Assembly (NCBI RefSeq): GCF_023266035.1
Contig: NZ_JAHFRY010000018.1
Location: 1 to 45,777 of the forward strand
Source of the DNA: Nevskia sp.
GTDB lineage: Bacteria; Pseudomonadota; Gammaproteobacteria; Nevskiales; Nevskiaceae
Direction of reading: 5' to 3'
Length of the DNA: 45,777 nt
Part shown: positions 25,150-45,453 of the stretch, piece after piece
How positions within the stretch are numbered: position 1 is the first letter of the stretch
Layout: each line of letters opens with the position of its first letter
Program-made: the position numbers and the translations under genes
The notes under the pieces: model-generated
The model's database searches: none
Told to the model about the DNA's origin: nothing
The model's input: the letters and a program-made list of their open reading frames with translations, nothing else

Positions 25150-27141
25150 TCAGCCCGCCTTACCGATTCTGACGACCACCGCATTGCGTTCCACCGTCTG
25201 GCCTTCCGTGCAGTGCGTGGACTCGACCACGCCATCAGCCTCGGCGCAGATGCGCATTTCCATCTTCATGGATTCGAGGATCGCAACAACATCGCCGGTC
25301 TTCACCGCGTCGCCGCTCTTCACGTTGACCTTGAGAATCATCCCCATCATCGGCGCGCGAAGCTCGCCGCTCGCCTCGCTGGTGGCGCTGATGTAGCTGA
25401 GATAGGGCAGCGCCTCGAAGGCGTGCGTGCCAGCGTCGTCCTGCACGTGGACCGTATCGCCGTCCTGGATCACGCGCACGTTGAGGCGGCGGTTGCCGAG
25501 GATGGCGAGATAGCGGTGGTCACCGAGGGGGCGCAGGTTCAGTTCCGTGGGCGCGTCGTCCACCGCGAGCCGCTGGCTGCCGTCGGCAGCCAGCGGGGCG
25601 AAGCGGATCGCGGCCGAGACCACTCCGCTTTGCAGATGCAGCGCGGGGATCGGCGCCAGGCCATCGCCGGAATCGGCCATCTGCCAGCCGGTGAGTGCAG
25701 CTGCGGACCACACGCCGGCCGCGGGCTCGGCGCGATTGCGCAGCAGCCAGACGTAGGCAGCAATCGCGAGCGTGCCATGGTCGTGCAGTGCGGTCTTCAG
25801 TGACCACGAGGCTATCTGCTCGTCGATGAGCCGCGTGTGGAAGCTGGCGTCGCGCGTCTGCGGCAAGGACAACAGGCGCTTGAGGAACGCGCGGTTGGTG
25901 ATGACGCCGAACACGCTCATCTCGTCCAGTGCGAGCTGCATGCGGTCCATCGCCTGGTCGCGTGTCGGCGCGTGGGTGATGAGCTTGGCCAGCATCGGGT
26001 CGTACCAGGGCGTGACCTCGCTGCCGGTATCTACGCCGGCCTCCACGCGCACGCCTCGGGCCGGGAAACTCACGTGCGCGAGCCGTCCGGTGGAGGGCAG
26101 GAAGTTGGCGGATGGGTCCTCGGCACAGATGCGCGTCTCGACCGCGTGACCGCTGACCTTCACATCGCTCTGGTTCAGCGCCAGCCCTTCACCCGAGGCG
26201 ATGCGCAGCATCAGTTCCACGACGTCCAGCCCGGTCACCTCCTCGGTGACGGGATGCTCCACCTGCAGGCGCGGGTTCACCTCCAGAAAATAGTAGTGAT
26301 CGCCCTGCACGATGAATTCCACCGTGCCGACGTTGCGATAGTTCAGGCGCTCGCCGAGGCGCACGGCGTCGGCCAGCAGGCGCTCGCGCAGACCTGGCGC
26401 GAGCGGCGCAGCGGGTGCTTCCTCGACCAGCTTCTGGTGGCGGCGCTGCAGGGTGCATTCGCGCTCGAACAGGTGAATAACCTTGCCCTTTCCGTCGCCG
26501 ACGATCTGCACTTCGATGTGTCGCGCCCGCTCGATCATCTGTTCGACGATCAGCGAGGGCGAGCCGAAGGAGTTCTTCGCCTCGCGCATCGCCGACTCGA
26601 TGTCCGCAGCCAGCGTGTCCAGCGTGTCCAGCGCACGCATGCCCTTGCCACCGCCGCCGGCCGCGGCCTTGAGCATCACCGGCAGGCGCAGGCCGCGCAC
26701 GGTGTCGGCGATTTTCATGGCGTCATCGCTGGCGCCCTCGCTGCCCGGCACCACCGGCACGCCGGCCGCTATGGCCTCGCGCTTGGCCATGGCCTTGTCG
26801 CCGAGCCGGTCGATGACCTCTGGCGTGGGGCCGATGAAGGCGAGGCCCGCGGCCTCGACCGCGCGCGCGAAAGCCGCGTTCTCGGCGAGAAAGCCGAAGC
26901 CCGGATGGATGGCCTCTGCGCCTACGCTTTTGGCCGCCTCGATCACGCGCTCCATGCGCAGGTAGCTCTCGGCGGCAGGCGCACCGCCGATCTCGATGCT
27001 CTGGCCGATCTCGCGCACATGCAGCGCGTCGCGATCCGCTATGGAATGCACGCCGGCCGCGCCGACGCCGAGGCGGCGGCAGGTGCGGGCGATGCGGCAG
27101 GCGATTTCGCCGCGGTTGGCGATCAGGATTTTCTTGAACAT
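25150..27141 (-). CDS. Biotin-dependent acyl-CoA carboxylase alpha subunit
   Basis: The protein has 663 residues, the size of MCC/GCC alpha subunits (LiuD/AtuF type). Biotin carboxylase landmarks are FKKILIANRGEIACRI, the glycine-rich ATP loop KAAAGGGGKGM (from residue 158) and EVNPRLQVEHPVTE. The C-terminal biotinyl domain has ESMKMEMR, with Lys626 the expected biotinylation site. It lies 31 nt after the second carboxyltransferase gene and 7 nt before a LiuC-like hydratase. It carboxylates biotin with bicarbonate and ATP and hands the carboxyl group to one or both beta subunits. The gene context points to a 3-methylcrotonyl-, geranyl- or related 3-methyl-2-enoyl-CoA carboxylase, but the exact acyl-CoA cannot be told. 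Confidence 0.95.
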   Translation of the reverse strand: MFKKILIANRGEIACRIARTCRRLGVGAAGVHSIADRDALHVREIGQSIEIGGAPAAESYLRMERVIEAAKSVGAEAIHPGFGFLAENAAFARAVEAAGLAFIGPTPEVIDRLGDKAMAKREAIAAGVPVVPGSEGASDDAMKIADTVRGLRLPVMLKAAAGGGGKGMRALDTLDTLAADIESAMREAKNSFGSPSLIVEQMIERARHIEVQIVGDGKGKVIHLFERECTLQRRHQKLVEEAPAAPLAPGLRERLLADAVRLGERLNYRNVGTVEFIVQGDHYYFLEVNPRLQVEHPVTEEVTGLDVVELMLRIASGEGLALNQSDVKVSGHAVETRICAEDPSANFLPSTGRLAHVSFPARGVRVEAGVDTGSEVTPWYDPMLAKLITHAPTRDQAMDRMQLALDEMSVFGVITNRAFLKRLLSLPQTRDASFHTRLIDEQIASWSLKTALHDHGTLAIAAYVWLLRNRAEPAAGVWSAAALTGWQMADSGDGLAPIPALHLQSGVVSAAIRFAPLAADGSQRLAVDDAPTELNLRPLGDHRYLAILGNRRLNVRVIQDGDTVHVQDDAGTHAFEALPYLSYISATSEASGELRAPMMGMILKVNVKSGDAVKTGDVVAILESMKMEMRICAEADGVVESTHCTEGQTVERNAVVVRIGKAG

Positions 27142-27172
27142 GGTCGGGTATCAGGTATTGGTCGGCCGCGCA

Positions 27173-28780
27173 TCACATGCGGAACACGCCCATGCGGGTC
27201 GGAATGGCCTTGGTGCGGCCGGCGAGATCGAGCAGCAACGCCATCACCTCGCGCGTCTCGGTGGGTTCGATGACCATGTCGCACCACAGGTTGCGCGCGT
27301 AGTTGTACGGGCTCACGAAGTCGGTGAACTCCTGCCGGATTGGCGCCTCGTAGGCGGCGCGCTCGTCGGCCGTCCAGCTCTTGCCTTCGCGCTGCTGGAT
27401 GGTCTCGCGCACCATCGACATCGTGGTCGCCGCCTGGTCCGGCCCCATCAGTCCGGCGTGCGCCGTCGGCCACATCATCATGCAGTGCGGGCTGAAGCCG
27501 CGGCCGCACATTGCCATGTAGGCCGCAGCATAGGACGCGCCGGTGATCAGCGTGTACTTGGGCACGTTGGCCGAGGCCATCGCGGTCATGAACTTGGCGC
27601 CGTGCTTGGCGATACCCGCGCGCTCCACCGTGGTGCCCACCATGAAGCCGGGGGTATCGACCAGGAACAGCATCGGCACATCGCGCTTGCAGCACATCTC
27701 CATGAAATGCGCGCCCTTGACCGCGCTTTCGGGGAACATCACGCCATTGCTGGCGAGAATGCCGATGGGATAGCCGTGGATGTTGGCGAAGCCGCAGATG
27801 AGTGTTTCGCCAAACAGCGGCTTGAATTCCTGCAGCACGCTGCCATCCACCAGCCGCGCAAGAATCTCGCGGGTGTTGTTCGGCACACGACGATCAGCGC
27901 TGAACAGGCCGTAGATTTCGGCAGGGTCGTACAGCGGCCGCTCGGGCTGCGCGAGCGGCCAGCGCAGCGCCGGACGCGGCTCCAGCCGGGCGACAATGTC
28001 GCGCGTGATGGCCAGCGCATGGCTGTCGTTCTCGGCCATGTGATCGGTCACGCCGCTGATGGTGCTGTGCATCAGCGCGCCGCCGAGCGATTCGATGTCG
28101 CTCACCTCCTTGGTCGCGGCGTAGACGAGCTGCGGGCTGCCGAGAAACATCGCGCCCTGGTTGCGGATGATGACCACCTCATCGCACAGCGCCGGGATGT
28201 ACGCCCCGCCCGCGGTGGACGGCCCGTGGACGATGGCGATCTGCGCGATGCCCTCGGCCGACATGCGCACCTGGTTGTACATGATCGAACCGGCCTGGCC
28301 CTCGTCCGGGAAGATGTTCGCGAGGTCGGGCAGAAATCCGCCACCGGACTGGACCATGGTGATGCACGGCAGTCGGTGCTGCCACGCAAACTGCTGCGCC
28401 CGCGTGTGGCGCTTGGTGGTCATGCCGAACATGGTGCCGCCCTTCACCGTCGCCTCGTTGACGATGAGCATGCAGGCGCGGCCCTGCACCATGCCGACGC
28501 CGGTGATGATGGTGGCGCCGGGCGGCACCCCCTCGTACATTCCCTCGCCCGCCATGTGGCCGAATTCGAGGAAGGGCGAACCGGGATCCAGCAGCGCGCT
28601 GATGCGCTCGCGCGGCAGCATCTGCCCGCGGCTCTTGTGCAGCGCGCGGGCTTTTTCCGATCCGCCGACGCTCGCCGCAGCGCGGCGTGTCTTCAGCTCG
28701 GCGATCTGTGCGAGATAGGCCGCGCGGTTGCGCGAGAATTCTTCTGACGAAGTCGATACATGGGAAGTCAGGACGCTCAT
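27173..28780 (-). CDS. Acyl-CoA carboxylase beta subunit (carboxyltransferase), divergent copy
   Basis: The protein has 535 residues and aligns without any gap to the neighbouring 535-residue paralogue. MCC-type landmarks are MLPRERISALLDPGSPFLE, STAGGAYIPALCDE and 'GPDQAATTM'. Two places depart from the common family pattern. SGGGF (145-149) replaces SGGAN, and GASYAAA (414-420) replaces GASYGAG, changing two glycines in the C-terminal oxyanion-hole segment. It is the second gene of the operon, 13 nt after the first copy. It may form mixed hexamers with the first copy or recognise a different acyl-CoA. No frameshift or stop is seen, so it is probably expressed. Confidence 0.93.
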   Translation of the reverse strand: MSVLTSHVSTSSEEFSRNRAAYLAQIAELKTRRAAASVGGSEKARALHKSRGQMLPRERISALLDPGSPFLEFGHMAGEGMYEGVPPGATIITGVGMVQGRACMLIVNEATVKGGTMFGMTTKRHTRAQQFAWQHRLPCITMVQSGGGFLPDLANIFPDEGQAGSIMYNQVRMSAEGIAQIAIVHGPSTAGGAYIPALCDEVVIIRNQGAMFLGSPQLVYAATKEVSDIESLGGALMHSTISGVTDHMAENDSHALAITRDIVARLEPRPALRWPLAQPERPLYDPAEIYGLFSADRRVPNNTREILARLVDGSVLQEFKPLFGETLICGFANIHGYPIGILASNGVMFPESAVKGAHFMEMCCKRDVPMLFLVDTPGFMVGTTVERAGIAKHGAKFMTAMASANVPKYTLITGASYAAAYMAMCGRGFSPHCMMMWPTAHAGLMGPDQAATTMSMVRETIQQREGKSWTADERAAYEAPIRQEFTDFVSPYNYARNLWCDMVIEPTETREVMALLLDLAGRTKAIPTRMGVFRM

Positions 28781-28793
28781 GGTGTTCTCGTCC

Positions 28794-30401
28794 TCACATC
28801 CGGAACACGCCGAACTCGGTGGGCTCGGCCGGCGTGCGGCCCGCGAGCTCCAGCAACAGGCCCATCACCGTGCGCGTTTCCAGCGGGTCGATCACCATGT
28901 CGCACCAGGTGTTGCGGGCAAAGTTGTAGGCATTGGCGAATTCCTCGAAGGTCTTGCGCGTCGGCGCCATGTAGGCCTCGCGCTCCTCGGGCGTCCAGCT
29001 CGTGCCCTCGCGCTTGTGGATGTCGTCCTTGACCATCGCCAGCGTGGTCGCCGCCTGATCCGGACCCATGATCGCCGCGCGACCGCTGGGCCACATCAGC
29101 ATCGCGTTGGGCTTGAACGCGCGGCCGCACATCGCGAGATACCCGGCGCCGTAAGACGCGCCGATGATCAGCGTGTATTTGGGCACCGAGGCGCAGGCCA
29201 TCGCCGTGATCATCTTGGCACCGTGCTTGGCGATGCCGGCTTCCTCGGCCTCACGCCCGACCATGAAGCCGGTGACGTCGGCCATGAACAACAGCGGGAT
29301 GTCGCGCTTGCAGCAGATGTCGATGAAGTGCGTGGCCTTCATCGCACACTCGGCGAACAGCACGCCGTTGTTGCACAAGATACCGACCTCGAAACCCATC
29401 ATGCGACCCCAGCCGCAGATCAGGGTCTCGCCGTACAGCGGTTTGAATTCGCGGAACTCGCTGCCGTCCATGAGCCGCGCGACGATCTCACGGTTGTCGG
29501 TGGGCACGCGGGTGTCGCGGCTGACGATGCCGTAGATGTCCTTCGGGTCGTGGACCGGCGGACGCGGCGGCAGCGCCTTCCAGCGCTGCGTCGGCGGCGT
29601 GCCCAGATTGGCAACCAGGTCGCGGACGATGGCGATGGCGTGTCCGTCGCTCTCGGCGAGATAGTCGGTGACGCCGCTGACCCGCGAGTGCATCTCGCCG
29701 CCGCCGAGTGTCTCTTCGTCCACCACGTCCTTGGTCGCCGCGTAAACGAGCTGCGGGCCGCCGAGAAACATGCGGCCCTGGTTGCGCACGATGACGTTCT
29801 GGTCGCACAGCGCCGGCATGTAGGCGCCGCCAGCGGTGGATGTGCCATGCACCGTCGCGATCTGGGCGATGCCCTCGCCGGACATGCGGATCTGGTTCCA
29901 GAAAATGGTGCCGAACTGGCCCCAGTCCGGGAACACGTGGGGCTGGTCCGGCAGGTTGGCGCCACCGGACTGGACCAGGGTGATGCAGGGCAGGCGGTGC
30001 TGCCAGGCGAAGCGCTGGGCGCGCACGTGCTTCTTGCAGGTGATGCCGTAGTAGGTGCCGCCTTTCACGGTGGCGTCGTTGGCCATGATCATGCACGGAC
30101 GACCGGACACCAGGCCCACGCCGGTGATGATGCTGCCACCCGGCGGCACGCCCTCGTACAGGCCCTCGCCCGCCAGGTGCGAGAACTCCAGGAACGGCGA
30201 GCCGGGATCGATCAGCGCTGCCACGCGCTCGCGCGGCAGCATCTGCTTGCGCTGCTTGTGCAGTCGCCGCGCGCGCTCGGGGCCGCCGGCGCTGGCTTCA
30301 GTGCGGCGCCGCTGCAGGTCGGCCACGCGGGCGAGATAGGCCTCGCGATTGAGGCGAAAGTCCTCGGTGGAGGACGACACCCGGGAAGACATCAGGGCCA
30401 T
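28794..30401 (-). CDS. Acyl-CoA carboxylase beta subunit (carboxyltransferase)
   Basis: The protein has 535 residues and is the first gene of the minus carboxylase operon. It carries the complete MCC/GCC-type signature: MLPRERVAALIDPGSPFLE, NDATVKGGTYYGIT, VQSGGANLP, STAGGAYMPALCDQ, GASYGAGYLAMCGRAF and MGPDQAATTL. With the biotin-carboxylase subunit three genes on it should form an alpha6beta6-type carboxylase for a 3-methyl-2-enoyl-CoA. It has the canonical glycines that the second copy lacks. Upstream lies a 726-nt intergenic region with a strong palindrome, so transcription probably begins there. The distance from palindrome to start (about 400 nt) implies a long leader or a further promoter closer in. 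Confidence 0.94.
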   Translation of the reverse strand: MALMSSRVSSSTEDFRLNREAYLARVADLQRRRTEASAGGPERARRLHKQRKQMLPRERVAALIDPGSPFLEFSHLAGEGLYEGVPPGGSIITGVGLVSGRPCMIMANDATVKGGTYYGITCKKHVRAQRFAWQHRLPCITLVQSGGANLPDQPHVFPDWGQFGTIFWNQIRMSGEGIAQIATVHGTSTAGGAYMPALCDQNVIVRNQGRMFLGGPQLVYAATKDVVDEETLGGGEMHSRVSGVTDYLAESDGHAIAIVRDLVANLGTPPTQRWKALPPRPPVHDPKDIYGIVSRDTRVPTDNREIVARLMDGSEFREFKPLYGETLICGWGRMMGFEVGILCNNGVLFAECAMKATHFIDICCKRDIPLLFMADVTGFMVGREAEEAGIAKHGAKMITAMACASVPKYTLIIGASYGAGYLAMCGRAFKPNAMLMWPSGRAAIMGPDQAATTLAMVKDDIHKREGTSWTPEEREAYMAPTRKTFEEFANAYNFARNTWCDMVIDPLETRTVMGLLLELAGRTPAEPTEFGVFRM

Positions 30402-31127: not shown

Positions 31128-33167
31128 ATGAACCACCGCAGCGCATCGCCCGTGATGGATCGGGGTCAGTCCCTGAAAATCACCCGCGCTTGGGAAGCGT
31201 TTCTCAGCGGTGAGCCGGTGCCGGACGAGGGCTTGCGTCATCTGGTGCTGGCGTCCTGGCAGCGCAGCCACCTGCATCAGGTGGACCCGAAGTTGAGCAA
31301 GGCACCGGTCGATCCTGATCGACTGGCCAGCGCCCGACTGGCCCACAGCGAACTGATCGAATCGGCGATTCCGGTCCTGTGCGAAACCGAGCGACTGTTG
31401 CACGAGGCCGGTGTCATCGTCCTGCTGTGCAGCCCCAGCGGCCTGATCCTGGAATCGCGCGGCTCGCGCAAGATCCTGGATCTCGGACTCGACGCCAACA
31501 TCATCCCGGGCGGCATCTGGCATGAGGACGTGTGCGGCACCAATGCCGTAGGCACCGCCATCACGGCGGACCGGCCGATCCAGCTCAACGGACCGGAGCA
31601 TTTCTGCGAGGGCATCAAGCGCTGGACCTGCGCCGCCAGCCTGGTCAAGGACCCGCTCGACGAGCGGCTGCTGGGTGCACTCGACATTTCGTACAGCGAA
31701 GCGCAGCTCGACCGGCATGCCCTGCCCCTGGTGATTTCCGCCGCCAGGCGCATCGAGGCCAACCTGTACGGCCGCGAAATGAAGCGGCAGCACTTCCTGC
31801 TGGAAAGCTACCTGGATCGCTACGCACATCGCGCGCACGACGGCCTCCTGCTGCTCGACCGCCGCGACCGTCTGCTGCGCTGGAACGAGAATGCACCGCT
31901 GGCCCTGGCCCGCCGAGGCATCACCCTGCCGCTGAAGCGCGGTGCGGCGCTCGATGAGGGCCTGGCTGCACGGGGCATGATTGACGATCGCTGCGACTCG
32001 ACGCTGCCGCCGTGGATCGCCCCGGACTGGGTGCAACCCCTGATCCTGGATGGCCGTCGCGAGGGGTCCGTGGTCATCATTCCGTTTCGACCGCCCGCCC
32101 GCCCCATGGCAGCGTCCGGAAGTACCACCGACACCGGGCATGGTGTCCGCGATCCGCGCCTGGCCGGGCATCGCAGCCCCGGTATGCGCCGCGCGCTGGA
32201 GCAGGCCGAGCGGGTCGCCGCACTCGATATTCCCGTGCTGATCGAAGGCGAAACCGGTACCGGCAAGGAGTTGCTGGCGCACGAGATTCATCAGTGCAGC
32301 GCCCGGAGCGGCAAGCCCTTCGTCGCGGTGAACTGCGGCGCGATTCCGCGCGAGCTGCTGGCGAGCGAGCTGTTCGGCCACACGGAGGGGGCGTTCACCG
32401 GCGCGCGCCGCGGCGGCCACGCCGGCAAGTTCGAGCAGGCCCACGGCGGCACCTTGTTTCTGGATGAGCTGGGTGAACTGCCGCTGGACCTGCAGCCCTA
32501 CCTGCTGCGCGTGCTCGAGTGCAAGGACCTGGTTCGATTGGGCAGTGCGAGCAGCCGGCCCATCGACGTCAGGATCATCGCCGCGACCAACCGTTCACTG
32601 CGCACACAGATGGAACGCGCGCAGTTCCGCGACGATCTGTTCTACCGCTTTCACGTCAGCCTTGTCCTGCCGCCGCTGCGCGAACGCAGGGAGGACATGG
32701 ATCGCTACATCGCGCACTGCCTCGACGAGCTGGCGCGGCGTCACGGCCTGGACCGATCCCTGAGCCCGCGGCTCATCGCCGCGCTGAAACGCTATTCATT
32801 CCCCGGCAATCTGCGCGAGATGCACAACCTGGTCGAGCAGATGGCGGTCATGAGCGACCGTCACGAACTCGACATGCCCGACCTTCCCGAACCTTTGCGC
32901 AGCCAGCTGGATCGGCCGGATCCCGCGCAGGGGCTTCAGGTGGAACGCCCCCAGTCCCTCCGACACGCCGAGCGTCAGGCCATCCTCGCGGCCCTGAGCG
33001 CCGAGCGTGGCAATCGCGGCCACGCAGCGCAACGCCTGGGCATCTCGCGCACGACGCTGTACCGCCGGCTGATCGAGTACGACCTCGTTGAGGTCCTGAC
33101 TGCGGACACGGACGCCGCCGATTCGACGATGCATCCGATGCCCCGGGGCGCGAGCGCCATGCAGTAA
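31128..33167 (+). CDS. Sigma54-dependent Fis-family activator, AcoR/DhaR type
   Basis: The protein has 679 residues. The N-terminal part has a GAF-type sensor with the AcoR-family signature '[15 protein letters not shown]' (131-145), followed by a PAS-like stretch near 230-320. The AAA+ domain has Walker A GETGTGKE (374-381), the sigma54-contact loop GAFTGA (421-426) and Walker B GTLFLDE (441-447). A Fis-type helix-turn-helix ([17 protein letters not shown]) is near the C terminus. It should bind an enhancer, sense a small molecule directly through the GAF domain and remodel sigma54 polymerase. It converges with the CoA-ligase gene with a 9-nt gap. The only consensus sigma54 promoters I found in the window are at 37.15 and 37.43 kb and are its probable targets. 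Confidence 0.95.
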
Positions 33168-33176
33168 TCGCGAGTC

Positions 33177-34823
33177 CTAGGAAATGGTGGCCTCGCGCAA
33201 CTCGCGCTTGAGGATCTTGCCGACCGGGTTGCGCGGAATGACCTCGACCACACGCAGCGATTCAGGGAGCTTGTAGCTGCCGAAGCCCTGCTCGCGCATC
33301 CATCCGGTGACCTCGCCCAGCGTCGGCGGAAGCCGAGTGTCACGCGCCACCACGCAGAGGCAGACCTTCTCGCCCATGATCTCGTCCGGCACCGCGATGG
33401 CCGCGCAGTCGGCAATGGCCGGATGTCCCAGCGCCATGTTCTCCACTTCGGCGGCGCTGATGTTGAAACCGCCGCGGATGATGATGTCCTTCTTGCGATC
33501 GAAGAAGCTGAGGAAATTGCCTTCCAGGATCTTGAATGTGTCGCCGGTGTAGAAGTAGCCGTCGGCGTCGAAGGATCGAGCATTGACGTCGGGCTGATTG
33601 AAGTAGCCTGGAAAGACGTTCGGCCCCCTGTATGCCAGTTCGCCCACGCCGCCGGGCTCGGTCACGAGCGCGCCATCCTCGCCGACGATCTTGACCTGCA
33701 CGCCGGGAATGGCCGACGCCCACTGCACGCCCTCGCGGCCCCACCATGGCAGGTGATCGACGCGCTGCGACGGGTCGGGCACATCATGCGGCCCGGCGAC
33801 CAGCGCAGTGCCCTCGTTCTGGCCCCAGAGGTTGATGATCTCGATGTCCCAGCGGCGCTTGAATTCCTGGATCGCGTAGGCCGAAGGCGGCGCCGAGCCG
33901 ACTGCCAAAGTACGGATGTGACTCAGGTCGATCTGGTCCACGTTCGGCAGCTTGCAGATCATGTTGAGCATGGCCGGCACCAGGCTGGAAAACTGCACGT
34001 TCTCCGTCGCGAGCTGCCTGACAAACAGGTCCAGGTTCAGCGGGTGATGCAGGATCAGGGTGCCGGCACGGAACAGCCAGGGCAGCAGCATCGCGCCGAC
34101 CCCGGTCATGTTGACGATGGGCGCGGCGCAGAGAATGCGATCACCATCCCGCACGTCGACGAGTGCCAGCACGCGACCGGACTGAAAGAACCAGTTGTTG
34201 TGCGACAGCGGCGTGCCCTTGGGCAGCGACTCGGTGCCGGAGGTCCAGCACAGCGTGAACACATCATTGGCGTCGAGCGAGACCTGTGACAGCAGGCCAG
34301 GCTTCGATGCGCCACTGGCCCACCTCGTCAGTTCCGCAAGACCGATGCGATGCTCGATCCGGTGCGCGCCACGCAGCTTGTCCACCAGGCCCAGATACTC
34401 CGTGCCCTTGAACGAGTCGGCTGCGATGTAGAAGCGGGCGGCCGTGGTTTCGGCAACGTGTCCGAGCTCGTGCTGGCGCCACTGCATGGCCAGCGGCGAA
34501 GGAATTCCGCCGGCCATGCTGACGCCGAAATACAGCGCGATGAGTTCCCAGACATTGGGCAACTGGATGATGACCACCTCATCCTTGTTCAGGCCCAGCT
34601 CCAGCAGACGGCTGGCGATGGCCTCTGCCGCCGCGCCGATCTGCGCCCAGGTCTTCTGCTGCGGCGCGGTCCCGACCAGAGCCACGCGATCGGCCGGATC
34701 GATCACCGCCATGCGATCGCCGTACGCGGCCACCTGTTCGCGAAAGGCATCGACCAACGTCCGCGTCCCCCAGTAGCCCGCGGCGACGTTTTCACGAATG
34801 ATTTTTTCGTGGTTCAGGATCAT
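33177..34823 (-). CDS. AMP-forming acyl-CoA ligase, cyclohexanecarboxylate/aryl-CoA ligase-like
   Basis: The track ORF (699 aa) includes a non-coding extension over the next gene. The real start is MILNHEKIIREN at 34823, preceded by GGAGAAACAAC, giving 548 residues. ANL-family motifs are TSGTESLPKG (P-loop), 'NLWGQNEGTA', 'YTGDTFKILEGNFLSFFDRKKDIIIRGG' and a C-terminal Lys in 'PRNPVGKILKREL'. The N-terminal region, with 'YWGTRTLVDAFREQVAAYGDRMAVID', resembles ligases for alicyclic and aryl acids (AliA/DHB-AMP-ligase-like group) more than fatty-acid ligases. It is the last gene of the minus three-gene unit, after two acyl-CoA dehydrogenase subunits. It probably makes the CoA ester that those subunits oxidise. 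Confidence 0.9.
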   Translation of the reverse strand: MILNHEKIIRENVAAGYWGTRTLVDAFREQVAAYGDRMAVIDPADRVALVGTAPQQKTWAQIGAAAEAIASRLLELGLNKDEVVIIQLPNVWELIALYFGVSMAGGIPSPLAMQWRQHELGHVAETTAARFYIAADSFKGTEYLGLVDKLRGAHRIEHRIGLAELTRWASGASKPGLLSQVSLDANDVFTLCWTSGTESLPKGTPLSHNNWFFQSGRVLALVDVRDGDRILCAAPIVNMTGVGAMLLPWLFRAGTLILHHPLNLDLFVRQLATENVQFSSLVPAMLNMICKLPNVDQIDLSHIRTLAVGSAPPSAYAIQEFKRRWDIEIINLWGQNEGTALVAGPHDVPDPSQRVDHLPWWGREGVQWASAIPGVQVKIVGEDGALVTEPGGVGELAYRGPNVFPGYFNQPDVNARSFDADGYFYTGDTFKILEGNFLSFFDRKKDIIIRGGFNISAAEVENMALGHPAIADCAAIAVPDEIMGEKVCLCVVARDTRLPPTLGEVTGWMREQGFGSYKLPESLRVVEVIPRNPVGKILKRELREATIS

Positions 34824-34860
34824 GTTGTTTCTCCGTTGCAGCGATCGGGGTGTGCGCGGT

Positions 34861-35907
34861 TCAGGCGTTTGCGGTGCTGCCGAGCCGGGTGATGAAAGGC
34901 CACAGCCCCTCGCCTCCCACTTCCAGCGCCTTCCTGCCGAGCAGCGTGTTCCAGTACACCTCGGTGCCGAAGTCGTCGCGCCAGCTCCACAGCCGCTTGG
35001 TGTAGTGGTGCAGGCGGTGTTCGTAGGTGAAGCCCATCGCGCCATGCACCTGGTGTGCAATCCGGGTCGCCGATTCCACCGCCATGCTGGCGCGCGCCTT
35101 GGCCACCGCGATGTCGAACAGGGCGTCGCCGACACTGTGACCGTACTGGGCAGCGTCGGCCGCTGCATCCACCGCAGCATCCACCGCCGCCACTTCCGCA
35201 GCCAACAGGGCCAGCTCCTGCTGGATCGCCTGGAATGCCGCAAGCGGGCGGCCGAACTGCTTGCGCTCCAGCACATACGCGGAAGCCAGCGCGAGGCAAC
35301 GCTGCAAGGCGCCGGCCATCTGCGCGCTGCGCATCAGCGCGCCTCGCGCGAGCCAGGGCATGGCGTCGATGGACGAGGTCACATCGAGACTGAATTCGGA
35401 ACCCGCAAGGTTCAGTTCGTCACTCGGTTCGCCAGCGAGATTGGCACCTTGCTTGATGACCAGCGCTCGCGGATACAGCCTCAGACGCCGTTGGCCATCG
35501 ACGCCGCCGAGCGCGACGACCGGCAGGCTGCGGCCCCAGGGCACGCGCTTGTGTGTACCCGGCAACGGGCCGCTCGCGGCATCGGGCGGCGCAATCGTCA
35601 AGGCACCGCCGGGCAAGGACTGTCCCGCGTCGACCAGCGCCAGGCCGGCAAGCCAGTGTTCGGCCAGCGGCACCGGAGCGGCGTGGTAGCCCGCGACCTT
35701 GAGCAGGGCCACACCGTCGCCGAGGTCCAGGTCGCTGCCGCCGCAGGCCATCGGCAACAGTGCGTTGGCGAGCCCATTCTGTTCCAGCGCATCCCACAGA
35801 ACCTGGGCCCACTCGCCCTGTTCCAGGCGGTTCACCTGCTCGACCGTGCTGAGGTCGGTGAAGATGCGGTGGGCAGTCTGCAACAGCAGTTCGGTCGATT
35901 CGCTCAT
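34861..35907 (-). CDS. Acyl-CoA dehydrogenase, short partner subunit
   Basis: The protein has 348 residues, shorter than a standard ACAD. It retains 'YVLERKQFGRPLAAFQAIQQ' and 'IAHQVHGAMGFTYEHRLHHYT', but the middle domain lacks the TEPGxGSD and W(I/K)T segments and the C terminus lacks the catalytic GGTxEI ending. This is the degenerate half of a heteromeric ACAD. The complete half is the gene immediately upstream, overlapping it by 4 nt. An Ala-rich helix (AAEVAAVDAAVDAAADAAQ) is inserted near residue 245. It is the middle gene of the minus unit driven by the sigma54 promoter at 37.15 kb. Confidence 0.9.
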   Translation of the reverse strand: MSESTELLLQTAHRIFTDLSTVEQVNRLEQGEWAQVLWDALEQNGLANALLPMACGGSDLDLGDGVALLKVAGYHAAPVPLAEHWLAGLALVDAGQSLPGGALTIAPPDAASGPLPGTHKRVPWGRSLPVVALGGVDGQRRLRLYPRALVIKQGANLAGEPSDELNLAGSEFSLDVTSSIDAMPWLARGALMRSAQMAGALQRCLALASAYVLERKQFGRPLAAFQAIQQELALLAAEVAAVDAAVDAAADAAQYGHSVGDALFDIAVAKARASMAVESATRIAHQVHGAMGFTYEHRLHHYTKRLWSWRDDFGTEVYWNTLLGRKALEVGGEGLWPFITRLGSTANA

Positions 35908-37082
35908 CTCAGTCCCAGTCCTCTTGCAATTGCACCGCGCAGGATTTCGTTGGTACCACCACGCAAAGTTGACGAGGGCGCGCGCAGCACGGCCTCCGCC
36001 AGCAGCCGGCCGAACTCGCCTTCGTGCAGTGGCATTCCCGCGGCGGCGGCAATCAGGCGCGCCTGTTCCGGCAAAAGGCGCTCGAAGCGCGTGCCGAGGT
36101 CCTTGACCACCGCGGCCTCGATTTCCAGCGAAGCGCCAAGCTGCAGGCGACCGGCGACCGACAGCGACATCTGCCGGAGGGTCGCGAGCTGCGTGACCAG
36201 CGCGCCGACCGCCGTGGTCAGCGGACCGTCCGACTCGCCGATCTGCGCCGCCAGCGGGCCGAGCAGGCTGGCGAGCACCGGGTAGTAGCTGAGAAAGCGT
36301 TCCGGCCCGCTGCGTTCGTAGGCGAGTTCACTGACCACCTGCTTCCAGCCCCCGCCGATGTCACCGATCACGCGCGCGTCCGGCACCAGCACATCGTCGA
36401 ACACCACCTCGTTGAAGTGGTGATGACCGGTGAGATTGAGGATCGGGCGCATCTGGATGCCCGGCGAGTCCAGTTCCACCAGCAACTGGCTGAGCCCGGC
36501 GTGGCGATCGTCCTCCTTGGGGGAGGTTCGGCACAGCACGATCATGCAATGCGCATCGTGCGCAAAGCTGCTCCAGATCTTGCGGCCGTTCAGGCGCCAG
36601 CCGCCGTCCACCCGATCGGCGCGGGTACGCACGGCGGCCAGATCGGAGCCCGCATCGGGCTCGCTCATGCCGATGGCGAAAAAGCATTCGCCGCGCGCGA
36701 TTCCCGGCATGAAGCGCAGGCGCTGTTCCTCGGTGCCGTAGCGCAGCAGCATAGGGCCGGTCTGCCGGTCCGATATCCAGTGCGCGCCCACCGGCGCGCC
36801 GGCCGAAAGCAGTTCCTCGGTGAGGACATAGCGTTCCAGCGAGCTGCGCTCCGCCCCGCCGTACTTCCTGGGCCAGGTCATGCCCAGCCAGCCGGCGCGG
36901 CCGAGCTTGCGCGAGAATTCCGGCGAGGCATTCATCCAGGAATCACTTGCGGGCAGGAAGTGGCCCGCCGCCAGTTCTTCGCGCAGGAACGCGCGAACCT
37001 GGTGGCGCAGCGTCTCCGCCACCGCAGGCAGGCGCTCGTGGGGAAACAGTAATCGCTCGGTCATCAATCTCGTCGCTCTCAT
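35904..37082 (-). CDS. Acyl-CoA dehydrogenase, catalytic-type subunit
   Basis: The protein has 392 residues; an alternative start (MTERLLFPHERLPA) lies 6 codons in, and neither has a strong Shine-Dalgarno. Motifs are AIGMSEPDAGSDLAAV, KIWSSFAHDAHC, 'YERSGPERFLSYYP' and the full C-terminal STLRGGTNEILRGAIARGLGL. It overlaps the partner subunit by ATGA, so the two are probably made in equal amounts. As first gene of the minus unit it begins about 62 nt downstream of a consensus sigma54 promoter. It is a second alpha/beta-type ACAD in the window besides 15514-17826, with clearly different sequence, so it was not copied recently. Confidence 0.92.
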   Translation of the reverse strand: MRATRLMTERLLFPHERLPAVAETLRHQVRAFLREELAAGHFLPASDSWMNASPEFSRKLGRAGWLGMTWPRKYGGAERSSLERYVLTEELLSAGAPVGAHWISDRQTGPMLLRYGTEEQRLRFMPGIARGECFFAIGMSEPDAGSDLAAVRTRADRVDGGWRLNGRKIWSSFAHDAHCMIVLCRTSPKEDDRHAGLSQLLVELDSPGIQMRPILNLTGHHHFNEVVFDDVLVPDARVIGDIGGGWKQVVSELAYERSGPERFLSYYPVLASLLGPLAAQIGESDGPLTTAVGALVTQLATLRQMSLSVAGRLQLGASLEIEAAVVKDLGTRFERLLPEQARLIAAAAGMPLHEGEFGRLLAEAVLRAPSSTLRGGTNEILRGAIARGLGLR

Positions 37083-37143
37083 CGGGGCTTGTCGCGCGAA
37101 TGGCTTCGCATCGATTTTCTTGAAGGACAGTCAACGCGAATCC

Positions 37144-37158
37144 GCAACCGCCGTGCCA
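37144..37158 (-). promoter_or_regulatory. Sigma54 (-24/-12) promoter for the ACAD/CoA-ligase unit
   Basis: On the minus strand the sequence is TGGCACGGCGGTTGC, matching TGGCACG-N4-TTGC exactly with correct GG-N10-GC spacing. A start about 12 nt downstream of the GC leaves a leader of roughly 50 nt before the ATG at 37082, a normal length. It points toward the acyl-CoA dehydrogenase pair and lies about 140 bp from the inverted-repeat cluster at 37291-37321. Confidence 0.8.
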
Positions 37159-37290
37159 TGCACATGCGGGCGACCCACTTGATGCCGGACGCTGGCGCAG
37201 AGTGCGCCCACCGACGGGCTTTGTATCCGGCGACGAGTCCTGTTCGCGCCCATGCACCTGCTGGCATCCCGGCGGCAAAATGTTTCAGGA

Positions 37291-37321
37291 TGGAACGTGG
37301 TTGTTCCAGATGTTCCGGAAC
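37291..37321. promoter_or_regulatory. GGAAC/GTTCC inverted-repeat cluster, presumed enhancer (UAS)
   Basis: TGGAAC-N6-GTTCCA is followed two bases later by TGTTCCGGAAC, whose last 10 bases are a perfect palindrome, so four half-sites lie within 31 bp. The cluster is between two outward-facing sigma54 promoters, about 110 bp from one and 140 bp from the other, the usual range for enhancers of sigma54 activators. The Fis-type regulator at 31.1 kb is the natural candidate to bind it. No clear IHF site was seen on either side. Confidence 0.65.
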
Positions 37322-37425
37322 GACCCACTGCATTCAGGGCGGCCGATGCGCCAGACGCGGCGTGGCAGCGCGCACTACGCGGTTGTTGCAGGGTTCTCTT
37401 CGAACGGGGATTTCGATTCCGTCAA

Positions 37426-37440
37426 TGGCACGAGCCTTGC
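37426..37440 (+). promoter_or_regulatory. Sigma54 (-24/-12) promoter facing the aldehyde dehydrogenase/BVMO genes
   Basis: TGGCACGAGCCTTGC matches TGGCACG-N4-TTGC exactly. It points to the plus strand, toward the ligase remnant and then the aldehyde dehydrogenase at 37943. The predicted start near 37452 leaves a leader of about 490 nt, much of it remnant sequence. This long leader is the weak point; the exact motif and the mirrored partner promoter are the strong points. Confidence 0.7.
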
Positions 37441-37456
37441 GCCTTCGGGCATCGAC

Positions 37457-37661
37457 ATGCAGCTAAACCTGAAAAGCTTCTTCGAACGCACCCGCACCGA
37501 ACAATATTTTCCTCGCAACGAGGCAGCGCAACCGGTATCGGCACTCGATGGCGCTGTGCATCGCCGACGTCATGGGCCTGGCCGAGCGCGACACCCTGCT
37601 CCCCGTGGTGCCGATGTTCCACGCCAATACCTGGGGCCTGCCCTACGCGGCCTCGCGGTAG
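37457..37661 (+). pseudogene. Remnant of a fatty-acyl-CoA ligase gene
   Basis: ATG at 37457 begins MQLNLKSFFERTRTEQYFP, which resembles the first residues of AMP-dependent acyl-CoA ligases. In a different frame, 37548-37661 reads MALCIADVMGLAERDTLLPV then MFHANTWGLPYAASR and stops. 'LPVVPMFHANTWGLPY' is a hallmark segment normally found about 200 residues into AlkK/FadD-type ligases. The intervening adenylate-binding region, the frame and everything after the stop are lost. The gene was therefore reduced by internal deletion and truncation. An intact CoA ligase on the opposite strand (33177) may have replaced it. Family assignment rests on short segments but these are distinctive. Confidence 0.65.
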
Positions 37662-37681
37662 GCGCGAAGAGGTTTGCCGAG

Positions 37682-37867
37682 ATGCAGGCACGTCCGCGCA
37701 ATATTTCCAGCCTGCGCCAGTTGATGCTCGGCGACCTCGCCACCATCACCCATGTGCCGCGCGACTTGCTCGACGCAGGACACGAGGCTTGCCTGGACGT
37801 GCGCGTCCGCCAGGGCATCCCCATGCGCAAACTGCGCAAGCAGGTCTTGCGCGACGTCGTGCGCTGA
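37682..37867 (+). CDS. Small orphan ORF, possibly the 3' end of a decayed gene
   Basis: This 61-codon frame begins MQARPRNISSLRQLMLGDLA and ends LRKQVLRDVVR. Its amphipathic, Arg-rich composition and codon use look like real protein rather than a shadow. No Shine-Dalgarno precedes the ATG, and the frame is open well upstream into the ligase remnant. I do not recognise the family. It could be the C-terminal tail of a gene whose front was removed by the same deletion that destroyed the ligase. The stop is 75 nt before the aldehyde dehydrogenase. Confidence 0.3.
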   Translation: MQARPRNISSLRQLMLGDLATITHVPRDLLDAGHEACLDVRVRQGIPMRKLRKQVLRDVVR

Positions 37868-37942
37868 TCCGCTGCCAGGTCATCCGAGTCGCAGCGCCCG
37901 ACGATCCGACAAATTCTTTACCTGAGAGAGAGAACGGTACCC

Positions 37943-39394
37943 ATGGAAAACGACATCGCGCTGCCCGATTGCACCAGGCTGTTCATCGGCGGCCACTGGG
38001 AGGAGCCGGCCGTTGCCGCGTCCTACACCAACGAGAACCCCGCGCTGCGCAAGGGACTGTGCGAAGTCGCCATTGCCGGCGAGAAGGATGTCGATCGCGC
38101 GGTGAAAGCGGCGCACGCGGGTCTGGCCAGCAAGGAGTGGGCGGGTCTGCCGGCGGCGGATCGCGGCCGCCTGCTCTGGAAGGTGGGTCAGATCATCCGC
38201 GAGCGCGCCAAGGAGCTCGCCACGCTGGAATCGCTGGACACCGGCAAGCTCTATGTCGAAGCCCTGTACGGCGACATGGAAAACGCCGCAGGCGCATTCG
38301 AGTACTACGGCGGCTGGAGCAACAAGATCACCGGACAGGTGCTGCCGGTGCCGCCCAAATTCCTCGACTACACACGGCGCGAGGCGGTGGGCGTGGTCGG
38401 CGCGATCATTCCCTGGAACTTCCCGCTGATGATGGCGGCGATGAAGATTGCGCCGGCTCTGGCGATGGGCAACGCGGTGATTCTGAAACCCGCCGAGCAG
38501 ACGCCGCTGACGGCTATCGCCCTGGCGCGCATCCTCGAAGAAGTGGGACTGCCCAAGGGCATCCTCAGCGTGCTGACCGGGTTCGGCGATACCGGCAAGG
38601 CGATGGTTGCGCACCCGGGCATCGACAAGATCACCTTCACCGGCTCCACCGCGGTGGGCAAGGCGATCATGCGTGGCTGCGCCGACACGCTGAAGCGCGT
38701 TTCGCTGGAGCTGGGCGGCAAGTCGCCGAACATTGTGTTCGAGGATGCGGACATCAAGCGCGCCGTGCGCGGCGTCACGACCGGCATCTATTACAACCAG
38801 GGCCAGATGTGCACAGCCGGATCGCGCGTTCTGGTGCACGAGAGCATCCACAACCAATTCATGGATGCCTTCCTCGCAGCGGTGAAGGAAATCGAAACCG
38901 GCAGCCCTTTCGACAAGACCTCGCGCATGGGCTCGCTGGTGTCCAAGGAGCAGTTCGAGAGAGTCAGCGGCTATGTCGAGCTGGGCCGGAAGGAAGGTGC
39001 GACCTTGGCCCTCGGTGGCACGCCCGGCGGCAGCGAGGGCTACTTCTTCCGCCCCACCGTGTTCACCGACGTGCAGCCGCATCACCGCATCGCGCAGGAG
39101 GAAATCTTCGGGCCGGTGGTCGCCACCTCGACGTTCAAGACCGAGGAGGAAGTGCTGGCCGTGGCCAACAACGTCAGCTACGGACTGGCCGCCGGCATGT
39201 GGACCAACGACTTGGCGCGCGCGCATCGCATGGCGCATGCGCTCAAGGCGGGCACGGTCTGGGTCAACACCTACAACGCCATGTGGCGCGAGTCGCCCTT
39301 CGGCGGCTACAAGCAGAGCGGCCACGGGCGCGAAGGCGGCCAGGATGGTGCCGAGCTGTACACCGAGGTCAAGAACATCTGCATTTCGATCTGA
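37943..39394 (+). CDS. NAD(P)-dependent aldehyde dehydrogenase
   Basis: The protein has 483 residues, the standard length for the betaine/phenylacetaldehyde-type ALDH group. Motifs are GAIIPWNFPL (153-162), TFTGSTAVGK, SLELGGKSPN with Glu256, GQMCTAGSR with the nucleophile Cys290, EEIFGPVV and SPFGGYKQSGHGRE near the C terminus. GAGAGAGAA lies before the ATG. It is the first intact gene of the plus unit that includes the esterase, BVMO and two alcohol dehydrogenases. The natural role is oxidation of the aldehyde formed from the hydroxy acid by one of those alcohol dehydrogenases, as ChnE does in cyclohexanol breakdown; this is inference by pathway analogy. Confidence 0.94.
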   Translation: MENDIALPDCTRLFIGGHWEEPAVAASYTNENPALRKGLCEVAIAGEKDVDRAVKAAHAGLASKEWAGLPAADRGRLLWKVGQIIRERAKELATLESLDTGKLYVEALYGDMENAAGAFEYYGGWSNKITGQVLPVPPKFLDYTRREAVGVVGAIIPWNFPLMMAAMKIAPALAMGNAVILKPAEQTPLTAIALARILEEVGLPKGILSVLTGFGDTGKAMVAHPGIDKITFTGSTAVGKAIMRGCADTLKRVSLELGGKSPNIVFEDADIKRAVRGVTTGIYYNQGQMCTAGSRVLVHESIHNQFMDAFLAAVKEIETGSPFDKTSRMGSLVSKEQFERVSGYVELGRKEGATLALGGTPGGSEGYFFRPTVFTDVQPHHRIAQEEIFGPVVATSTFKTEEEVLAVANNVSYGLAAGMWTNDLARAHRMAHALKAGTVWVNTYNAMWRESPFGGYKQSGHGREGGQDGAELYTEVKNICISI

Positions 39395-39540: not shown

Positions 39541-43129
<3,589 letters not shown>

Positions 43130-43168: not shown

Positions 43169-44275
43169 ATGCGAATTACCGCCGCCGTGCTGCGCGAGGT
43201 GGGCAAGCCGTTCCAGATTGAAGAACTGGAACTGGCTGCGCCCAAACAGGACGAGGTCCTGGTCAGGACCGTCGCCAGCGGCATCTGCCACAGCGACTAC
43301 TCGATTGCCCACGGCGTGCTGCGCGCGCCGATGCCGATCGTGCTCGGCCACGAGGGCGCGGGCGTCGTCGAGGCGGTCGGCCCCGGCGTGACGCATCTGA
43401 AGCCCGGCGACAAGGTGATCGGCTCGCTGACGCCGAGTTGCGGCGAGTGCGCCATGTGCAAGGAGCACAAACACTTCATGTGCGTGCAGATGGGCGCGCT
43501 GCTCAACAACTGCACCTACATCGACGGCACCACGCGCCACAAGACGCTGGAGGGCCAGGACGTGTACGCGATGTGCGGCCTGGCCTCGTTCGGCTCGCAC
43601 ATGGTCATGCCGGCGGGTTCGGCCATCAAGGTGCCGCACGATACCGCGCTCGAATCCACCTGCCTGATCGGCTGCGGCGTCACCACCGGCGCCGGTGCCG
43701 CGCTCAATACCGTGAAGGTCAAGCCGGGCGACGCGGTCGCGGTGGTCGGCTGCGGCGGCGTGGGCCTGTCGATCATCCAGGGCGCGCGCATCGGCGGCGC
43801 GAGCATCATCATCGCGGTCGATCCGATGCCGGAGAAGCGCGAGCTGGCCCTGCGCATGGGCGCCACGCACACGGTGAATCCCTTCGAGGAAAATCCCATG
43901 GCCAGCGTGCGCAAGATCAGCGGCGGGCTGGGCGTTCACTACGCCTTCGAGGCGCTGGGACGGGTGGAAACGATGGAGCAGTGCTGGGGCATGATCCGGC
44001 CCACCGGGCGCGCCGTCATCGTCGGGATCGCCGCGCTCAATCAGTCCGTGCGCCTGTCCGCGGCCGGCCTGCTGGCCGAATACGAAATCCAGGGCAGTTG
44101 CTACGGCTCCTCGTCGCCGGCCGTGGACATCCCGCGCTTCGTCGAACTGTACAAGAAGGGCGATCTGCTGCTGGACGAAATGATCACGCAGCGCATCAGG
44201 CTCACCGACATCAACCGCGCGTTCGAGGAGATGGGCCGCGGTGTCGGCGCCCGCTCCGTGATCATGTACGGCTGA
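43169..44275 (+). CDS. Zinc-dependent alcohol dehydrogenase (first of tandem pair)
   Basis: The protein has 368 residues. MDR/class-III-like ADH ligands are all visible: catalytic zinc Cys40 (GICHSD), His61 (GHEGAG) and Cys169 (LIGCGVTTG), and structural zinc Cys91, 94, 97 and 105. The NAD-binding motif GCGGVG spans 194-199, and the Asp after strand beta-B (AVDPMPEKR) favours NAD+. The next gene is a clear paralogue with the ligands at the same residue numbers. In this unit the two could oxidise the starting cyclic alcohol to the BVMO's ketone and the hydroxy acid to an aldehyde; which does which cannot be told. Confidence 0.94.
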   Translation: MRITAAVLREVGKPFQIEELELAAPKQDEVLVRTVASGICHSDYSIAHGVLRAPMPIVLGHEGAGVVEAVGPGVTHLKPGDKVIGSLTPSCGECAMCKEHKHFMCVQMGALLNNCTYIDGTTRHKTLEGQDVYAMCGLASFGSHMVMPAGSAIKVPHDTALESTCLIGCGVTTGAGAALNTVKVKPGDAVAVVGCGGVGLSIIQGARIGGASIIIAVDPMPEKRELALRMGATHTVNPFEENPMASVRKISGGLGVHYAFEALGRVETMEQCWGMIRPTGRAVIVGIAALNQSVRLSAAGLLAEYEIQGSCYGSSSPAVDIPRFVELYKKGDLLLDEMITQRIRLTDINRAFEEMGRGVGARSVIMYG

Positions 44276-44349
44276 TCCCGCCCTCGGGTCGCAGCGAATT
44301 TGCGCCTACGAATTCAAGCCGGTCGCGAATCGGTGGAGAACATCAAGAC

Positions 44350-45453
44350 ATGAAAACCAAAGCAGCCGTGCTCTATGCCATCGGCCAGCCCCTGGTCATC
44401 GAGGAGCTGGAACTGGAGGCGCCGCGCGAGAAGGAAATCCTCGTCAAGTGGGTCGCCAGCGGCATCTGCCACAGCGACTACTCGGTGCGCGACGGCACCC
44501 TGGGCCTGACCCTGCCCGCCGTGCTCGGCCATGAAGGCGCAGGCATCGTCGAAGCCGTCGGCCCCGGTGTGACCCAGCTCGCGGTCGGCGATCACGTCAT
44601 CGTCTCGCTCACCCCGCAGTGCGGCAACTGCGTGTTCTGCAAAGAAGGCAAGCCCTATCTCTGCGCGCAGATGAGCAGGGGTCTCACCAAGGGCCTGCAA
44701 ACCGATGGCAGCAAGCGCCTGAAAAACAGCAGGGGCGAAGAGATCGGCCAGTTGCTAGCCCTGGGCACGTTCTCCGAACGCACCGTGGTGCCGGCCGGTG
44801 CCGCGGTCAAGGTGCAGCACAACCTGCCGCTGGAAACCGCCTGCCTGATCGGCTGCGGCGTGACCACCGGCGTCGGTGCCGCGCTCAACACGGTCAAGAT
44901 CAACCCGGGCGACAGCGTCGCGGTGATCGGTTGCGGCGGCGTGGGGCTGTCGATCATCCAGGGCGCGCGCATCGCGGGCGCGACGACCATCATCGCCATC
45001 GATCCCGTGGCGGAGAAGCGCCTGCTGGCGATCGAGGTCGGCGCCACCCATGCGCTCGACCCGAGCGGGGAAAACGTGGTCAAGCAGGTGCGCAAGATGA
45101 CCGGCGGCGGCGTTCATTTTGCGTTCGAAGCCCTGGGTCGCAAGGAAACCATCGAGCAGGCCTGGGCCATGCCGCGCCTCACCGGCACCGCCGTCATCGT
45201 CGGCGTGCCGAAGAAGGACACGATGCTCGAACTGCCGGTGCTCGGCTTCTTCGGCGAGAAGCACTTCAAGGGCTCGGCCTACGGCAGTAGCGTGCCCTCG
45301 CGCGATATTCCGAAGTACGCGGAGATGTTCATGAGCGGCGAGCTGAAGCTCGACGCCCTGATCACGCAGCGCATCGCGCTTGAACAAGTCAACGAGGCGC
45401 TGGACCAGATGGGGCGTGGCGAAGGCGCACGTTCGGTGATCGGATATCGCTGA
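44350..45453 (+). CDS. Zinc-dependent alcohol dehydrogenase (second of tandem pair)
   Basis: The real start is MKTKAAVLYAIGQPLVIEEL at 44350 with GGAGAA 9 nt before it; the longer track ORF runs through the previous gene in another frame. The protein has 367 residues. Catalytic zinc ligands Cys40, His61 and a Cys in LIGCGVTTG, and structural Cys91, 94, 97 and 105, match the first copy. GCGGVG and 'IAIDPVAEKR' indicate NAD+. The region around residues 106-135 (SRGLTKGLQTDGSKRLKNSR) differs most from the first copy and borders the substrate cleft in this family, so the copies probably differ in substrate. It is joined to the next hydratase by a TGATG overlap. Confidence 0.94.
   Translation: MKTKAAVLYAIGQPLVIEELELEAPREKEILVKWVASGICHSDYSVRDGTLGLTLPAVLGHEGAGIVEAVGPGVTQLAVGDHVIVSLTPQCGNCVFCKEGKPYLCAQMSRGLTKGLQTDGSKRLKNSRGEEIGQLLALGTFSERTVVPAGAAVKVQHNLPLETACLIGCGVTTGVGAALNTVKINPGDSVAVIGCGGVGLSIIQGARIAGATTIIAIDPVAEKRLLAIEVGATHALDPSGENVVKQVRKMTGGGVHFAFEALGRKETIEQAWAMPRLTGTAVIVGVPKKDTMLELPVLGFFGEKHFKGSAYGSSVPSRDIPKYAEMFMSGELKLDALITQRIALEQVNEALDQMGRGEGARSVIGYR

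Follow-up and report, generated by a model that had tools for sequence, protein, structure and literature searches.

A candidate two-way sigma-54 control region between two opposing catabolic operons in Nevskia sp.

Does one activator switch on two opposing gene sets in Nevskia sp. from a single intergenic spacer? The original prediction, made from a 45,777-nucleotide stretch of contig NZ_JAHFRY010000018.1 (hereafter the window), placed two outward-facing TGGCACG-N4-TTGC sites on opposite strands of this spacer, and both are present. The sigma-54 -24/-12 site TGGCACGGCGGTTGC (37144..37158, - strand) faces an operon of two acyl-CoA dehydrogenases (ACAD1 and ACAD2) and an acyl-CoA ligase. The second site, TGGCACGAGCCTTGC (37426..37440, + strand), faces an operon of aldehyde dehydrogenase, esterase, Baeyer-Villiger monooxygenase (BVMO), enoyl-CoA hydratase (ECH) and alcohol dehydrogenase (ADH) genes. 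Both match the pattern exactly, with GG and GC elements at the standard spacing (TGGCAC-N5-TTGC), and their -24 elements are 268 bp apart. Transcripts are predicted to start near 37132 from the - site and near 37452 from the + site. Nothing else in the window matches TGGCACG-N4-TTGC with 0 or 1 mismatch.

Under a first-order Markov model of the window, 0.065 exact sites are expected, and the probability of finding at least two is 0.002. The chance estimate originally offered (0.02) was about threefold too low, but the conclusion drawn from it, that the pair is unlikely to be accidental, stands. Divergent pairs within 400 bp are expected 9e-6 times in the window and approximately 9e-4 times in 4.5 Mb (first-order model). 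The whole Nevskia sp. assembly (G000; 4.5 Mb, 243 contigs) was also scanned, and the exact TGGCACG-N4-TTGC pattern was found at 5 sites, compared to 3 for a reversed-pattern control; the corresponding numbers for TGGCAYRNNNNTTGC were 19 and 5. Since the exact pattern is barely more frequent than its control, a lone exact match means little, whereas a divergent pair means much.

Scored with a matrix built from 29 Salmonella sigma-54 sites, the two sites ranked 2nd and 3rd in the window, level with a few chance matches, because the base after TTGC (position -11) is G in both and not the usual, though not strict, A or T. One known Salmonella sigma-54 site also has G at this position (PMC3844500). 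What argues for promoters is how the sites are arranged and conserved, and not the score of either site. The Nevskia sp. genome harbours three full-length rpoN genes (contigs C98, C42 and C100; loci L006-L008). Scanning of 37000-38000 gave no sigma-70 promoter-like site, no IHF-like site was detected in the window spacer at up to 2 mismatches, and an Rfam search of the whole window gave no match.

The - arm starts with ACAD1 (acyl-CoA dehydrogenase, 35904..37082), followed by ACAD2 (acyl-CoA dehydrogenase-like protein, 34861..35907) and an intact AMP-binding acyl-CoA ligase (33177..34829), all on the - strand and assigned with Pfam. The first intact gene of the + arm encodes an aldehyde dehydrogenase (37943..39394, + strand, Pfam). 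It is followed on the same strand by an alpha/beta hydrolase (esterase, 39541..40455, Pfam), whose nearest NCBIfam model is the GESAG HSL subfamily, with a score below the cut-off, and by the Baeyer-Villiger monooxygenase (40488..42227; best solved relative 6jdk, E 1.6e-231). The enoyl-CoA hydratase (42242..43129) and two tandem zinc alcohol dehydrogenases (43169..45453, comprising 43169-44275 and 44341-45453) complete this arm and were identified by domain or family profile matches. Read from these enzyme families, the two arms together look like a route that would lead from alcohol to ketone to ester, split the ester, and pass the acid as a CoA thioester into CoA-linked breakdown. A further gene set on the - strand at 25150-30401, next to the activator gene described below, comprises one biotin carboxylase gene and two different carboxyltransferase subunit genes. 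It resembles methylcrotonyl/geranyl-CoA carboxylases and suggests a branched or isoprenoid substrate.

A sigma-54-dependent activator (bEBP) gene had been predicted to lie 4 kb from the spacer, and it was located there, at 31128..33167 (+ strand, 679 aa). The protein contains a GAF domain, a sigma-54 AAA+ domain and a Fis-type HTH (Pfam), and its AAA+ domain carries the Walker A motif GETGTGKE and the GAFTGA motif. It could be assigned to no named functional subfamily (AcoR, DhaR, PrpR etc.), as its NCBIfam equivalog scores are far below the cut-offs. Close relatives of the activator are few: a search of approximately 1,190 genomes and one scan of GTDB contigs yielded three intact members, including that of the window, and samples of the class, the phylum and the Extensimonas family contained no additional ones. 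Plasmid homologues are at most 42% identical. The two plasmid neighbourhoods inspected, those of Cupriavidus pinatubonensis and Neorhizobium petrolearium, are not orthologous, since they hold acetone-carboxylase-like or hydantoinase/oxoprolinase genes. A sigma-54 factor is also encoded on the N. petrolearium plasmid (L081, 6087-7385), adjacent to a related sigma-54 activator and to hydantoinase/CoA-transferase genes.

Besides the window, the cluster was found in a genome of the same family (G035; 83-95% protein identity over the shared genes), in a genome of the same order (G068) and, one-sided, in Extensimonas vulgaris. ACAD1 is 90% identical in G035 and 74% in G068; the aldehyde dehydrogenase is 95% identical in G035, 76% in G068 and 69% in Extensimonas; the esterase is 75% identical in G068 and 69% in Extensimonas. 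The activator homologues of G068 and Extensimonas are 54% and 52% identical to that of the window, and the G068 gene is located approximately 21 kb away from the spacer. The G068 spacer (about 0.4 kb) shows no detectable DNA similarity to that of the window except at the ligase start, and it also harbours two outward-facing sites. One, TGGCATATCGCTTGC, faces the acyl-CoA dehydrogenase gene (L059, 8524-8510) and is the positional equivalent of the - site; the other, TGGCACGGCCGTTGCT, faces a ligase gene (L059, 8773) and is the equivalent of the + site. Two of the 8 such sites of this genome fall in this one spacer (P = 3.6e-7), which also contains two weak IHF-like sites. In Extensimonas, the equivalent of the + site, TGGCACAAGCTTTGCT (L011, 514), precedes the orthologous ligase gene, and a sigma-54-like site, TGGCATTCGATTTGCT, lies upstream of a BVMO gene.

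The situation is different in G035. No match to the activator was detected in this genome, and the genes that flank the activator in the window are separated there by only about 500 bp. The - site has decayed to CGGCCCAGCGGTTGC (L058, 12508), with loss of the -24 element. Alignment with the window persists in the outer part of the spacer, but the enhancer region and the plus-strand site are missing, and the aldehyde dehydrogenase gene is retained without any sigma-54 site. Loss of the motifs from an orthologous spacer had been named beforehand as an observation against the model; as the activator gene is absent as well, the loss counts in its favour. Across the genomes compared, the activator is either present along with enhancer and promoters or lost along with them, and the contrast of G068 and Extensimonas with G035 supports a function for the candidate control region.

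The enhancer had been described as a cluster of half-sites in the middle of the spacer. Four GGAAC/GTTCC half-sites do lie within 31 bp (at 37292, 37303, 37312 and 37317), and this cluster is the densest in the window, which contains 115 such half-sites; the conserved unit is nevertheless a different one, TGTTYC-N5-GRAACA. In the window it corresponds to the predicted activator-binding box (UAS) TGTTTCAGGATGGAACG at 37281..37297, which fits this consensus with 1 mismatch and pairs TGTTTC at 37281 with GGAACG at 37292. The box thus uses one of the four half-sites together with a TGTTTC just outside the 37291-37321 cluster. The -24 elements lie 131 and 137 bp from its centre. UAS elements are commonly found approximately 70-150 bp from sigma-54 promoters (PMC3844500), and the distances in the window fit this range, as had been anticipated for a central enhancer. 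The remaining half-sites (37291..37322) form the dyads TGGAAC-N6-GTTCCA (37291-37308) and TGTTCCGGAACG (37311-37322), where a second dimer might bind, about 28 bp away from the conserved box. Their spacing differs from that of the conserved box, so any role assigned to them is conjectural.

The consensus was drawn from the window, G068 and the Extensimonas ligase promoter. In G068 the box lies between the divergent promoters, 107 and 142 bp from the -24 elements. In Extensimonas two boxes, 30 bp apart, precede the ligase gene, and this type of box is found upstream of both sigma-54 sites: the spacer between the activator and BVMO genes, a locus outside the consensus-building set, contains a perfect box, TGTTCCACTCTGGAACA, 105 bp from the sigma-54-like site. 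The co-occurrence of box and site is therefore partly circular, the consensus being partly derived from the same loci, except at the Extensimonas BVMO site. Per genome, the boxes number 8 to 16 (allowing up to 1 mismatch) and the promoter sites 6 to 19. Genome-wide scanning, proposed originally as a check, found a box no more than 250 bp away from a consensus sigma-54 site only in the activator's gene cluster in G000, G068 and Extensimonas; G035, which lacks the activator gene, has no such place. Conservation in relatives, the other comparison proposed, likewise bore the prediction out, as genomes that retain the activator retain the elements too (G068, and Extensimonas with one arm each for the ligase and the BVMO). 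The Nevskia sp. assembly contains a second divergent sigma-54 consensus pair, 238 bp apart (G000:C239:17869-18121; L085, 6869-7121), between a molybdenum-type dehydrogenase-like gene set and a TonB-dependent receptor-like gene. This pair has no TGTTYC box and presumably answers to another activator.

The + promoter does not directly precede an intact gene, a feature missed in the original prediction. Between it and the aldehyde dehydrogenase gene lie about 490 bp, most of them pseudogene sequence. Comparison with the intact G068 and Extensimonas ligases (tblastn/blastn) identified an acyl-CoA ligase pseudogene (37457..37849, + strand), in which the start codons are kept and are followed by three short pieces; several deletions and a frameshift have disrupted an original reading frame of approximately 544 codons. 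The intact ligase behind the + promoter has 544 codons in G068 and 537 in Extensimonas. The start codon follows the predicted transcript start by about 5 nt in the window, compared to about 33 nt in G068. As G035 has also lost the ligase from the corresponding position, real decay of the gene is likely, and an assembly error the less probable reading. In another genome of the same genus as the window (G019; L062, 8316-10200), a decayed activator, an aldehyde dehydrogenase tail and pieces of the esterase lie in a row. This row is a dismantled copy of the window's locus, and the locus is eroding in this lineage.

Very probably, the spacer works as a sigma-54 control region in both directions, with one activator driving both arms, a proposal supported by the co-conservation and co-loss of its elements across species. 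The GAF-domain activator (31128-33167) would sense an inducer and bind the TGTTYC-N5-GRAACA box at 37281-37297, perhaps helped by the half-sites just downstream. Looping of the DNA by approximately 130 bp either way would bring the AAA+ domain to both promoters, where it would remodel the RNA polymerase-sigma-54 waiting at either one. A single signal would thereby induce the - arm (two acyl-CoA dehydrogenases plus the acyl-CoA ligase) together with the + arm (aldehyde dehydrogenase, esterase, Baeyer-Villiger monooxygenase, enoyl-CoA hydratase and alcohol dehydrogenases). From the DNA we infer binding, looping, start sites, RpoN dependence, inducer and substrate alike. Several points speak against the two-way model: the G at -11 weakens the match at both promoters, the box consensus derives in part from these very loci, the G068 activator is some 21 kb off, the activator has few relatives, and pseudogene sequence separates the + promoter from the first intact gene.

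In a rival reading, only the - promoter still works, the + promoter being a relic that served the pseudogenised ligase and the aldehyde dehydrogenase having its own promoter. The destruction of the ligase, the shortened space between promoter and start codon compared to G068, and the persistence of the aldehyde dehydrogenase gene in G035 without a sigma-54 site all agree with this reading. However, the + site is still an exact consensus while the adjacent gene is shredded, as expected if it serves the intact genes downstream, and a search upstream of the aldehyde dehydrogenase gave no sigma-70-like promoter. We consider a relic + promoter unlikely.

Both promoters could also be genuine sigma-54 promoters controlled by another bEBP, or by one for each arm, and not by the nearby activator. 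Sigma-54-like regulators are numerous in this genome (27 candidates in an initial search), and the distance of the activator in G068 allows for such an arrangement. Against this, G035 has lost the activator, the box and both promoters together, and this cluster, in activator-bearing genomes, is the one place where a box accompanies a consensus site; control by a different bEBP is, on balance, quite unlikely. Least plausible, and very improbable, is that the sites are chance matches and that the two operons use other promoters. The G at -11, the modest matrix scores and the occurrence of sigma-54 patterns inside genes would be compatible with chance, but a divergent pair is expected only about 1e-5 times in the window, the pair recurs in G068 with the P value of 3.6e-7 given above, and the 37000-38000 region offers no sigma-70-like site in its place.

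Beyond the two-way control region itself, we tentatively propose a broader picture, which we hold to be possible but doubtful: in this little-sampled activator subfamily, one symmetric central enhancer would coordinate the two halves of a Baeyer-Villiger-type route, and the route would have been dismantled piecemeal in relatives. Here the ligase would have been the first to go, since the other arm has a ligase of its own, and regulator, enhancer and promoters would have followed together, as in G035. The analysis gives an uncharacterised activator subfamily a candidate binding box and a target of two operons. The comparison of G068 and Extensimonas with G035 amounts to a natural experiment on the decay of a sigma-54 control region after activator loss, and, combined with its two promoters, the sensor might be put to use as an inducible control element acting in both directions.

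Pairs of divergent sigma-54 promoters governed by a single bEBP are already known; the activator, box and target set of this probably functional region are undescribed. We found no paper tying a sigma-54 bEBP to a Baeyer-Villiger operon, within incomplete literature coverage. The plasmid pRK1-1 of Cupriavidus basilensis resembles the window in its esterase (69% identical), BVMO, and alcohol and aldehyde dehydrogenases beside a sigma-54 activator gene. It differs in that this activator is only 34% identical and that the same scan found no box or consensus site in the spacer, and it was rejected as a further test case. AcoR/DhaR-type bEBPs share the GAF domain, the AAA+ domain with GAFTGA, the Fis-type HTH and the nearby catabolic operons, but the window activator falls below the NCBIfam equivalog cut-offs, and gene cluster and ligand differ. 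In the SoxR/sox system of Bacillus thuringiensis, one sigma-54 activator and one inverted repeat control two opposing catabolic units (PMC4941409); that repeat has 11-bp arms and a 7-bp gap, the pathway is another one and the host is a firmicute. The hycA/hypA spacer carries FhlA-dependent divergent sigma-54 promoters (Salmonella sites 2999639-2999622 and 2999753-2999770; PMC3844500), and E. coli RpoN binds the hyc/hyp spacer (PMC8743547). As in the window, two outward sigma-54 sites share one spacer, and both hyc/hyp operons depend on one bEBP; activator, genes and box are different, and the -24 elements are 114 bp apart compared to 268 bp in the window.
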